From positions 62,001 to 126,000 of the forward strand of contig NZ_PDWT01000005.1 in assembly GCF_010093345.1 (NCBI RefSeq): a DNA stretch of 64,000 nucleotides. Reading direction: 5' to 3'. The notes under the pieces were generated by a model, which made no database searches, had not been told where the DNA came from, and worked only from the letters and a program-made list of their open reading frames with translations. The position numbers and the translations under genes are program-made. Of the stretch, positions 5,072 through 24,413 are shown one piece after another; positions within the stretch are counted from its first letter, which is position 1; each line of letters begins with the position of its first letter. The stretch is from Pseudoxanthomonas yeongjuensis (GTDB lineage Bacteria > Pseudomonadota > Gammaproteobacteria > Xanthomonadales > Xanthomonadaceae).

Positions 5072-5194
5072 ATAAAAAGCCCCACCGACCAGGGGGGGGT
5101 CAGCGGGGCCAGGGAACTGGGCCTGGGGAGGGGCCTTCGTTCCAAGATCACTCCAGGGGATGGGAGGGATCCAGTGACAGACCTTGCATCTGTC
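5072..5194 (-). ncRNA. sX13-like small RNA downstream of polA
   Basis: The 388-bp gap between polA and the DUF421 gene holds no ORF, but on the minus strand it contains a run of stem-loops. There is a perfect 8-bp hairpin at 5174-5196, then three hairpins at 5146-5171, 5113-5143 and 5079-5109 whose loops are all C-rich (CATCCCCT, CCTCCCCA, CCCCCCT). The last is a terminator with a U tract. A possible -10 box (TATAGC, 5204-5199) predicts a start near 5193 and a transcript of about 120 nt; if the 5' hairpin is excluded it would be about 100 nt. Xanthomonas sX13 is a roughly 115-nt RNA, encoded next to polA, with three C-rich loops that pair with G-rich mRNA leaders. Position and structure agree here. 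The 5' end is inferred. Confidence 0.75.
5074..5109 (-). terminator. Rho-independent terminator of the small RNA
   Basis: On the minus strand a 12-bp stem (GCCCCGCTGACC against GGTCGGTGGGGC, two mismatches) encloses the loop CCCCCCT and is followed directly by TTTTT. The loop of pure C is unusual and belongs to the functional signature of the RNA. Confidence 0.85.
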
Positions 5195-21931: not shown

Positions 21932-21984
21932 TTCAAGTCCGACTTCTTCTCGGGGTAATGTCTTAGTTTCACGGTCTAAATCTA

Positions 21985-21991
21985 GTTAGGT
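21985..21991 (+). other. Left core recombination site of the gene cassette (GTTAGGT)
   Basis: GTTAGGT fits the integron core consensus GTTRRRY. It starts a 13-base sequence (GTTAGGTGGCCAA, 21985-21997) that is repeated exactly in inverted form at the right end of the island (23508-23520). In a circular cassette this base run and the R'' box of attC are complementary, as expected. Confidence 0.8.
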
Positions 21992-22009
21992 GGCCAAGGG
22001 GAGACCATA

Positions 22010-22582
22010 GTGATTCCAAGCTTCAATCAATCGGGCGTCCTGCCCCCGTTTTTGCCTCAACCGGGACCAACCGTTTCGAGTGCAATGGCGCCTTACCCGA
22101 CAGACCTACTGGAGATCGCACAAACCCTCTGCAACTCGACAGAACGTAGAGACATCTTGCTTGGACTCATTGACTACCGCGACAGCCTACGAGCTGCAGG
22201 GATAACGAACGGGTTCCAATGGATCGCTGGCAGTTTCCTTGAAGACTGTGAGAACCAGCGCCAACGCCCCCCGAAAGATATCGACATTGTGACCTTCGCC
22301 AGACGTCCAGCATCAGCTCAGTCGCAGCAAGACTGGGTAACGTTCTATGGTGCAAACCCCCATCTGTTTGATCAGAACATTACTCAATCTGACCATAAGT
22401 GCGACGCCTACTACGTCGACCTCCATTTACCGCCAGAAGCCATCGTGAGCAGGTCAAGGTTCTGGTTTGGCCTCTTCTCCCATCAACGAGACACGTACAT
22501 CTGGAAGGGCTTGCTAGAATTGTCTCTTGCCTCAAACGACGACTCTGCGAGGCGATTTTTAGGAGGCGCTTATGCTCCGTAG
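22010..22582 (+). CDS. DUF6932-like nucleotidyltransferase-fold protein, first cassette gene
   Basis: A 190-residue protein from a GTG start with an AAGGGGAG ribosome binding site. The N-terminal IPSFNQSGVLPPFL matches the opening of DUF6932-type proteins. The centre shows a nucleotidyltransferase pattern: GS at residues 74-75, then DID (D90, D92) after a 14-residue spacer, and a third acidic residue in YYVDLHL (D137). Several such minimal nucleotidyltransferases are antitoxins or toxins of MNT/HEPN-type pairs, but a role here is inference. The next gene overlaps its last 11 bp. GC content is clearly lower than in the core genes. The 5' region has no visible promoter, which fits a cassette expressed from outside. 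Confidence 0.75.
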   Translation: MIPSFNQSGVLPPFLPQPGPTVSSAMAPYPTDLLEIAQTLCNSTERRDILLGLIDYRDSLRAAGITNGFQWIAGSFLEDCENQRQRPPKDIDIVTFARRPASAQSQQDWVTFYGANPHLFDQNITQSDHKCDAYYVDLHLPPEAIVSRSRFWFGLFSHQRDTYIWKGLLELSLASNDDSARRFLGGAYAP

Positions 22583-23519
22583 ACTTCGCCTAGATGCACT
22601 TAGAGCAGAGCTCGGGAGTGTTCGCGCTCAGGTTGAGATGTCGGACCAGTACGGCGATATTGTGGGTAGTGGTCAATTTCGCCGTCGCCTAGAACAGATT
22701 CAAGAAGAGCTTTCTGTTCTTGAGCTCCAAGACCCCACGAGAGCGTCGGTTGCTCTGTACTTCAGCGGGCGCCCTGTTCTTGGCACTCGCGGAATTGCCG
22801 CGGATTTCGCTGGGCGCTGCCTAGAGAACTACCAAGACCTCGTATCAAAGACATTTGCGCGGCGCGAGCTTGGCGCACTGGGTGAGCGCGGCCCAATTCC
22901 TCTCCGACAAAACACGGAAATGATGGTCACTGGTGTAACCCATGGCTCGTTTGGCTTCATCCTTGACGAGATGTCCGACCAAACATCAATTCTTGACACG
23001 CAACTCAAAGAAGTAGTTAAAGAAGTCTCCCTAACGCTTGAAAAATTCAGCGCTGACAGCGACTCGGAGTTCCTGGAGTTCGCCTCCGAGATTGACCAGA
23101 GGACAGTCATTTCCCTTAGGAATTTCTTCCAAGAAATGGACAACTCTTCGGCTACTGTTCGGATAGTTGAGGACATCCACGAGCTCAATCTGGATGGACC
23201 TGCCGTTCTAAGAGCGAGGCAGCGAGCTGAATCCTCAACCATCGAGGATGAGGCCACTGACATACAAGGCACGTCGATTCATGTGCTTCCTGAACACCGG
23301 ACGTTTGAGTTCAGGACGCTCACCGGGGATGTGCTATTCGGCAAGGCTCATGCTGACGCAGTAGAGTCCTATCTCAGCGCGATCGCAATGCAAGTAAATG
23401 TTGCCAACTCGCGCATGACGGCGCACATGCAAGTACGTACAGTTCACGCGCTTAACCGCGAACCAAGAAGTACTTATCGGCTGCGCAATTTGTCAATTGA
23501 GGGCGGTTTGGCCACCTAA
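22572..23519 (+). CDS. Uncharacterised 315-residue partner protein, second cassette gene
   Basis: I do not recognise a named family. The ATG is preceded by a perfect AGGAGG with a 5-nt spacer inside the end of the first gene, so the two are translationally coupled. Residues 1-55 are a charged helical region with coiled-coil character (RRRLEQIQEELSVLELQD). Residues 58-95 carry ALYFSGRPVLGTRGIAADFAG, and residues 118-131 carry VTGVTHGSFGFILDE, a glycine-rich strand-turn motif. A helical middle part follows, and a C-terminal beta-rich part (EFRTLTGDVLFGKAHADAV, MQVRTVHAL). No catalytic motif or membrane segment is evident. The TAA stop is contained in the attC R'' box. Confidence 0.75.
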   Translation: MLRRLRLDALRAELGSVRAQVEMSDQYGDIVGSGQFRRRLEQIQEELSVLELQDPTRASVALYFSGRPVLGTRGIAADFAGRCLENYQDLVSKTFARRELGALGERGPIPLRQNTEMMVTGVTHGSFGFILDEMSDQTSILDTQLKEVVKEVSLTLEKFSADSDSEFLEFASEIDQRTVISLRNFFQEMDNSSATVRIVEDIHELNLDGPAVLRARQRAESSTIEDEATDIQGTSIHVLPEHRTFEFRTLTGDVLFGKAHADAVESYLSAIAMQVNVANSRMTAHMQVRTVHALNREPRSTYRLRNLSIEGGLAT

Positions 23520-23611
23520 CAATTCGTTTTAGCCGAGACCGCTTCGCGGCCTCGGCAACGGCATCAATGATTGCATCATTGCCGCGGTCCGGCTTAACTC
23601 AAGCGTTAGCC
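23514..23611 (+). other. attC recombination site (59-base-element type)
   Basis: R'' is ACCTAAC (23514-23520), which fits RYYYAAC, and R' is GTTAGCC (23605-23611). Between them the L'' and L' arms AGCCG/CGGCT (23531-23535 and 23590-23594) and GACCGC/GCGGTC (23537-23542 and 23584-23589) pair with a single bulged A at 23536. This is the extrahelical-base feature of attC. The text CTAACAATTCGTTTTAGCCG and CGGCTTAACTCAAGCGTTAG closely resembles sites of aadA-type cassettes. An inner hairpin (CAATGA/TCATTG) forms the variable end structure. The left core GTTAGGT is the exact complement of this R''. Confidence 0.88.
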
Positions 23612-23693
23612 CGCGTAGGGCGGAACCGCCAAAGGCGATTCCGCCGCATGTATCGCGGCGTATTCGGCGGAAACGGCTACGCGGGTTCCGCCC
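23612..23693. repeat. CCGCGTAGGGCGGAA inverted repeat next to attC
   Basis: CCGCGTAGGGCGGAACCGCC and GGCTACGCGGGTTCCGCCC form an inverted pair with two further inner repeats (GGCGATTCCGCC). The element begins one base after the attC R' box, so it probably was part of the original insertion site rather than of the cassette. Confidence 0.7.
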
Positions 23694-23754
23694 AACGAGC
23701 TCTACCCAAGTTAAGTGACTTGATTCAACATCAGGCACCAGGAGATTTCTTGCG

Positions 23755-24243
23755 ATGGACCACAAACCACCCTTCCTGCTTGCTGCCTTGGCAATCCTTA
23801 TACTTTCGCCCTGTGTAGCTGCAGCTGCGGAAAACCCTGTAGAGCTTCAGGGACATTACCGCGTCAGAGGGGAGTGTGCCGAGCAACTTGAGGACGGAAG
23901 CTACAGAGATTGTGTTTCCTGGAACACGCTGACGCTTGTGCACCGTCCTGATGGCCGTTTCGACTACTCCCTCGACACGTCCACATTCGCCACTACCCAA
24001 GGCGGCTGCAGTTCGTCTGGAATTCTCTCCTTGGGCAGGAGTGGTCGGGATGAAATCCTCCACGGGACCGACGCACAAGATGCAATGTGTCGGATATCAC
24101 TCAGGATTGCACCGAAGCGCATTGAGTTGATTGAGCCATCGCAAGATGAGCTGGGGTGCAAGTCAATCTGCGCCTACAATTCGTCGCTCTATACAGACCC
24201 ATTCCTGCGCAGCAGCAAGCGCATAGCCCCGCACGATCCCTGA
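23755..24243 (+). CDS. Cys-rich exported protein of unknown function
   Basis: A 162-residue protein with a signal peptide (about residues 1-25, ending AAAA) and six cysteines in the mature part (in RGEC, YRDC, GGCSS, AMCR, LGC and KSIC). This is enough for three disulfides. No family is recognised. GGAG lies 12-15 nt before the ATG. GC content is intermediate, and the gene sits just downstream of the integron cassette, but it has no attC of its own (no R''/R' pair was found between its stop and 24.4 kb). It may be part of the same accessory region or a resident gene. Confidence 0.7.
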   Translation: MDHKPPFLLAALAILILSPCVAAAAENPVELQGHYRVRGECAEQLEDGSYRDCVSWNTLTLVHRPDGRFDYSLDTSTFATTQGGCSSSGILSLGRSGRDEILHGTDAQDAMCRISLRIAPKRIELIEPSQDELGCKSICAYNSSLYTDPFLRSSKRIAPHDP

Positions 24244-24249
24244 GAACAC

Positions 24250-24413
24250 GTAGGGTGGGCCTTGGCCCACCATCGCCAAGTCTCAACCTGCGATGGCTGT
24301 CGAACGAAGTCGTGTTTCCAGATGCAATGACGCCATGACGAAAAGCGATGGGCTTAAGCCCACCCTACAAAAATTGTAGAGCGAAGAGCTCGCGGCTGGA
24401 AGCCGCTCCTACA
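24250..24413. repeat. GTAGGGTGGGCC palindrome and an adjacent GTAGGAGCGGC half-element
   Basis: GTAGGGTGGGCCTTGGCCCA at 24250 is mirrored by GGGCTTAAGCCCACCCTAC near 24367. A right half-element (GAGCTCGCGGCTGGAAGCCG, then CTCCTACAA) follows at 24387-24413 and supplies the TAG stop (24411-24409) of the DUF58 gene. Confidence 0.8.

Follow-up and report, generated by a model that had tools for sequence, protein, structure and literature searches.

A single two-gene integron cassette, probably inserted at an attI-like site outside the resident integron of a Pseudoxanthomonas genome

The integron integrase IntI recognises the attC site as a folded bottom strand and the attI site as a double-stranded sequence, in the account given in part of PMC8191803. 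For IntI1, passages of PMC10127599 state that little is needed beyond GNT, which can be extended to GTTRRRY, and that attI-like sites are frequent across genomes. SALIN, an established IntegronFinder term, denotes a single attC site lacking an integrase, as used in the relevant portion of PMC12690207. CALINs, integrase-less clusters of attC sites, occur away from intI in about half of Xanthomonas genomes according to a passage of PMC12444791, and Loot et al. 2024 reported that cassettes insert at attG sites, as described in passages of PMC12444791, PMC12901181 and PMC11200725. Capture of a cassette at a secondary site is thus already a known kind of event, as these passages present it. The unit described here appears to be a clear example of such capture in nature.

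The unit lies in a 64-kb stretch of DNA that was analysed as a whole (the window), C24:62001-126000 of a 3.94-Mb genome in 28 contigs. It is a single two-gene integron cassette of 1,620 bp, and its features are collected in Table 1. Both junctions are GTT core boxes of a target that is not an attC, with the crossovers at G21985^TT and G23605^TT. A sequence-only reading of this DNA had named three core boxes, GTTAGGT, ACCTAAC and GTTAGCC, all of which are present where it placed them; the extent of 21985..23611 that it gave to the unit becomes 21986-23605 under the usual definition of a cassette. It also correctly put the last stop codon in R'' (the TAA of ORF2, at 23517-23519) and the first start 24 bp from the left edge (GTG 22010, counted from the first cassette base, 21986). 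The two ORFs overlap, are read towards the attC and fill 22010-23519. The same reading had taken the left 13 bases for the inverse complement of the R'' side, and the match is exact: GTTAGGTGGCCAA (21985-21997) is the reverse complement of 23508-23520 over 13 of 13 nt, with a mismatch at the 14th, which is what a formerly circular cassette with R' paired to R'' would leave. Of the GTT/AAC pairs in the window that are separated by 200-4000 bp, one other, 50558/51316, shows inverse complementarity over 13 nt, and there the attC model described below gives nothing above noise. The cassette has a GC content of 0.533 (0.532 in ORF1 and 0.530 in ORF2), to be compared with 0.673 in the 2 kb to its left and 0.557-0.562 in the resident cassette array.

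Table 1. Positions of the cassette, its recombination sites, its genes and its borders within the window.
Feature	Position	Strand	Basis or remark
attI-like core GGTCTA-N6-GTTA of the target	21973..21988	+	runs into the first cassette bases; spacing as in most congeneric attIs
Left core box GTTAGGT	21985..21991	+	crossover after G21985 (sequence)
Integron gene cassette	21986..23605	+	G^TT at both edges, from the TT after the left crossover to the G of R'
ORF1, 190 aa, DUF6932 (Pfam PF22014)	22010..22582	+	GTG start behind AGGGGAG
ORF2, 315 aa	22572..23519	+	overlaps ORF1 by 11 nt; PHROG 18731, E 2.3e-37
attC site, 98 bp	23514..23611	+	covariance model R1, 59.1 bits
R'' box ACCTAAC	23514..23520	+	sequence; model alignment
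L'' box GTTTTAGCCG, altered from GTTCAAGCCG	23526..23535	+	alignment of 59 attCs
L' box CGGCTTAAC	23590..23598	+	model alignment
R' box GTTAGCC	23605..23611	+	right crossover, after G23605; TTAGCC.. forms the right half of the target
Palindromic repeat that flanks the target on its right-hand side, outside the cassette	23614..23697	.	inverted repeat I1

For the attC site we used a covariance model (R1) trained on 14 attCs of the same genome, with the attC of the window left out. Under this model the site reaches E 1.3e-14 over the 64 kb with filters off, and E 7.9e-13 in a search of the whole genome. The 16 other listed matches in the window all score 14.3 bits or less, a gap of 45 bits, so that the site stands out from chance. 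No second attC rises above noise in the window with this model, which leaves one attC where a CALIN has at least two.

The attC had been described as intact, which holds for the R boxes and fails for the L'' box. In 55 of the 59 aligned attCs the L'' box contains TTCAAGCC, and the attC of the cassette is the only one with TTTTAGCC. This change puts T opposite T in L''/L', where a clean pairing with one extrahelical base had been proposed, and forcing the arms in the bottom strand gives a structure 3.7 kcal/mol worse than the best fold. Amongst four array attCs, the best fold is the attC fold in three, and the fourth comparison is unreliable since a non-pair was forced. The attC fold in general has covariation in its favour, with 9 of its 20 pairs changed on both sides across the 59 attCs versus 3.4 in shuffles, in an alignment that was itself fitted to the structure. 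In a comparison with five congeneric regions picked for attC similarity, the closest full-length relative is an attC in the attC array of one genome (G008), 78% identical over 119 columns; it has TTCAAGCC plus 11 bases that are missing from the attC of the window. The altered L'' makes the present-day mobility of the cassette doubtful.

The cassette had also been said to be far from any integrase. This is right for the window, since none of the seven matches to TIGR02249 in the genome falls there, in agreement with the earlier statement that the window has no intI. It is wrong for the contig: a full-length intI (C24:9047-9988), accompanied by an attI and an array, is found there at a distance of about 74 kb from the cassette. 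This intI scores 490 bits to TIGR02249 and is the only one of the seven matches to exceed the cut-off; its product aligns over the full length with the IntI4 of PDB 2a3v (327.7 bits), including the HTLRH and Y regions. The canonical attI is at C24:8818-8833, and the array extends leftwards from it, on the minus strand, to the end of the contig. Contig C22 likewise ends in an attC array of matching orientation, and the two ends presumably join as one main array. Together they hold 47 (19 on C24 and 28 on C22) of the 69 attCs that pass a threshold of E 1e-6; all these counts are lower bounds, since 150 of 2758 first-look candidates were scored in the genome search.

The other attCs, at least 22 of the 69, are away from the main array: five at C22:87-91 kb, five at C27:80-83 kb and 12 elsewhere, the attC of the window included. 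For two of these 12 scattered attCs, at least 12 nt of a left edge are complementary to the R'' side, in a search that reached up to 4 kb upstream within the DNA stretches examined. One is the unit in the window. The other, at C11:1230175-1230233, closes a second lone unit (C11:1229653-1230233) with a 12-nt edge complement and an altered R' box. This second unit (L069 2654-3234) is absent at the homologous place in genome G015, which has about 110 bp in place of about 1.74 kb in the genome studied here. The gene whose end carries the unit we would read as a diguanylate cyclase. The remaining ten scattered attCs look like relics: R'' is altered in nine of them (to CTGAC from CTAAC, for example) and R' in the tenth. 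The view that such events are rarely caught intact thus gives way before this second lone unit, at least 20 further attCs or relics off the main array, and the attG cassettes already described.

In nine of the loci inspected (L067, L068 and L070-L076) we see scattered attC-like palindromes of about 55-65 bp in which the AAC of R'' is often changed to GAC. Changes in R' partly compensate, as at C2:37927, which combines CCTGAC with GTCAGG. This looks like retention of the hairpin beyond the loss of the recombination boxes. At 16 scattered sites, pair changes on both sides are somewhat commoner than in shuffles: 16 cells versus 8.7, a value reached by 3 of 500 shuffles, and 8 pairs with both-side changes versus 5.6, reached by 43 of 500.

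Two cassette clusters in the genome have attI-like heads, one at C22:86639-86759 (L021 6640-6760) and one on the minus strand of C27 (L020 12020-12150). No match to an integron integrase was found near either cluster. The stretches upstream of the two share 76% identity with each other over 199 bp, and both lie behind a terminator-like palindrome.

The left junction of the cassette is itself attI-like. Beside intI, the attI core in the genus reads GGTCTA, six bases, GTTA, as seen in 23 sites collected by pattern from 27 loci, of which four (L094, L105, L106 and L107) are misregistered or spurious; the same sites trained an attI matrix. The left edge of the window unit reads GGTCTAAATCTA and then GTTAGG, with the attI spacing, so that the core GRTCTA-N6-GTTA of the genus attIs is present at the target, in a window that had been held to lack any attI-like sequence. 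The edge agrees with the attI of locus L101 at 15 of 18 bases and with the attI of its own genome at 13 of 18. The pattern GRKCTANNNNNNGTTA has five hits in the genome, namely the canonical attI, the heads of the C22 and C27 clusters, the window and an unrelated site at C21:422968. A reversed control pattern has 18, so the small count alone is no proof, and the weight lies on the match falling exactly on the cassette edge. Against nine hand-chosen attIs, the left edge is the best of 156 GTTA sites sampled from the window and from 16 further loci of the genome, sharing 9 of 12 upstream bases with one of the nine, while the next best site shares 8. With the attI matrix it scores 5.08 and ranks second of the 1411 GTT sites in the window, behind one unrelated site; the attI-like head on C27 scores only -0.5. 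The upstream attI part CCCC..GGGG is absent from 21932-21985, and no intI is adjacent. That attI-likeness caused the insertion to happen here is about an even bet, since the likeness was noticed after attI sites had been seen and since in the lone unit on C11 a GATCTA lies three bases further from GTT than the attI spacing.

We also considered the left flank as a decayed attC. The stretch TTCAAGTCCGA at 21932 resembles an L'' box, and the flank has no match to model R1, which bears out the earlier statement that the upstream sequence is not an attC. Two loci of other congeneric genomes, L106 (G024) and L107 (G037), have a second, lower-scoring integron integrase and an attI-like site that reads CCGGCTATTAGGTA and then GTTAGG.

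Taking these observations together, we consider it probable that the cassette was inserted outside the integron by the resident IntI, at a secondary attI-like site, as an element of the SALIN/attG type. The sequence-only interpretation had at its core the capture, at a secondary chromosomal site, of a cassette that was once circular, and this stays the best-supported reading. In the course of events that we propose, there would have been a free circular cassette in which the R'' box ACCTAAC was paired with GTTAGGT, and the resident IntI would have acted on it in trans. The folded bottom strand of the attC would have recombined with the double-stranded attI-like site GGTCTAAATCTAG^TTAGCCCG, in a target between the gene next to aroE and the palindromic repeat. 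Once the insertion had been fixed by replication, the left half of the target would lie next to the cassette and the right half would serve as the new R' end. The L'' box of the attC would have decayed later, which may have slowed excision.

The attI-like core with its attI spacing is also what would be left by the dismantling of a second integron, if the left flank were the last piece of a true attI and the intI and the other cassettes had been deleted. The genome does have the two other attI-headed clusters with no integron integrase nearby, and the gene downstream of the cassette (23755-24243) is itself cassette-like in composition (GC 0.556, GC3 0.595). We regard such an origin as unlikely. 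The space from the upstream stop codon (21931) to the core is only 41 bp and the CCCC..GGGG part of an attI is missing from it, the window has neither a TIGR02249 match nor a second attC above noise, and no attC match lies within about 1.5 kb of the homologues of the downstream gene, which a search of 390 genomes located in four, all belonging to a single other genus. For the same two reasons, no attC of its own and homologues free of attC matches over that distance, a second cassette from 23606 to about 24250 was rejected.

Insertion in trans by the resident integrase could have a wider counterpart in this genome. It is conceivable, though rather doubtful, that one integrase would serve scattered attI-like docking sites (the window, C22:86736 and C27:82024), each with its own cassettes, as a dispersed integron in which attI copies, and not arbitrary GTT sites, would set where off-array cassettes settle.

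We next turn to the chromosomal place itself, where an empty site had been predicted to read AATCTAG joined directly to TTAGCCCGCG. This 21-base pattern is found in none of the 38 congeneric genomes, the studied one included, at up to two mismatches; one match with three mismatches is at C5:1293210 of genome G019, about 189 kb from the aroE of that genome. In a whole-locus DNA search, the aroE side is matched in all 37 other congeneric genomes, and among the matches listed for these genomes none falls in the cassette except for pieces of the attC and the repeat. The unique right flank has no listed DNA match outside repeats in about 394-395 genomes of the family. The stretch from the aroE-linked gene to the gene starting at 24409 is variable in the genus, with other genes occupying the place in G010, G030 and G004, so the missing empty site neither supports nor refutes capture. 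The gene at this place in G004 (L027 after 2681) is, we assume, DUF1801-like, and one of the last genes of the C27 cluster (L020 10000-10470) looks similar. The repeat that borders the target has partial copies at C11:379478 and C11:388283 and in congeneric genomes. A second, different palindromic intergenic repeat is at 24250-24368, and both repeats have partial matches in congeneric and family genomes. Elsewhere in the window, the sRNA sX13 of Xanthomonadaceae is found at 5073-5185 on the minus strand, with 87.4 bits, and it helps to assign the genome to that family.

The variability of this stretch, together with a downstream neighbour that is low in GC and present in no other congeneric genome, would suit a cassette brought in as part of a larger island, or on a segment that already carried it and was acquired through homologous recombination. 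We find either very improbable, because each junction coincides exactly with a G^TT core box and the cassette ends match, as insertion by an integrase predicts. Finally, intergenic palindromes are common here, and a chance hairpin that mimics an attC has practically no standing against an E-value of 1.3e-14, the 45-bit gap to the next match and the 13-nt edge complement.

The cargo is a two-gene module that plasmids and viral contigs carry as well, most plausibly an accessory one of the defence type. ORF1 matches Pfam PF22014 with E 2.7e-29 and PHROG 9194 with E 1.5e-27; our search of the literature found no paper on DUF6932. ORF2 has no Pfam match above the cut-off, no NCBIfam match and no PADLOC family. 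By sequence comparison with PDB chains, the ORF1 family finds nothing and the ORF2 family only chance-level matches (E 0.16 or worse). ORF2 is present in five of 395 genomes of the family, its own included, and in none of the 37 other congeneric genomes. In a collection of 84,980 species we find homologues of ORF2 at 18 loci of named genomes. ORF1 is directly upstream at 15 of these, with a partial or split match in four of the 15; the match is missing at L114, which is at a contig edge, and at L120 and L121. The same order is seen at all three plasmid loci scanned and at all six viral-contig loci; in phage records ORF2 has no match, although the six viral contigs carry it. In a fourth plasmid record, two overlapping genes annotated as hypothetical share this layout, after a site-specific integrase and before helix-turn-helix and Arc-family genes. 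Neighbours of the pair include a helicase and a DNA methyltransferase on one plasmid and a ThiF/multiubiquitin set on another; a third plasmid has none of these. With the model from our own genome, which other types of attC could escape, no attC is found near the four family homologues or the 18 named loci. The pair is thus an accessory module carried by mobile DNA of several kinds, and at least in the genome studied here it was packaged as a cassette.

Our best guess for the function of this module, one that we would put somewhat below even, is a role in defence. ORF1 resembles the candidate defence model PDC-M63A of PADLOC-DB 2.0.0 (E 1.7e-9, weaker than its DUF6932 match). The difference is in its usual partner, since ORF2 matches no PADLOC model, and neither does any of the five members of its family compared. 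We know of no activity test of PDC-M63A.

With edges that can still be read, this locus is an example from a natural genome of how a cassette may come to lie away from the array in a host whose integron is sedentary, and resemblance to the integron's own attI is a candidate reason for the place. The attCs at several stages of decay in the same genome provide material on how cassettes become ordinary chromosomal genes, and the cargo is a two-gene module common to an integron cassette, plasmids and viral contigs. The points of most interest are the attI-like target and the attI-headed satellites within one genome. As far as the cited passages describe attG insertions, the unit shares with them a cassette off the integron, at a non-attC chromosomal site, in a genome that has an integrase. 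It differs in that its target resembles the resident cognate attI in both sequence and spacing (it may also resemble the attG consensus), that the host has a sedentary integron, and that the case is known from sequence alone. With SALINs and CALINs, as defined in the passages cited, it shares an attC-bearing cassette with no adjacent intI; its one attC puts it under the CALIN threshold of two, and it differs further in having kept at its edges the signature of a once-circular cassette.
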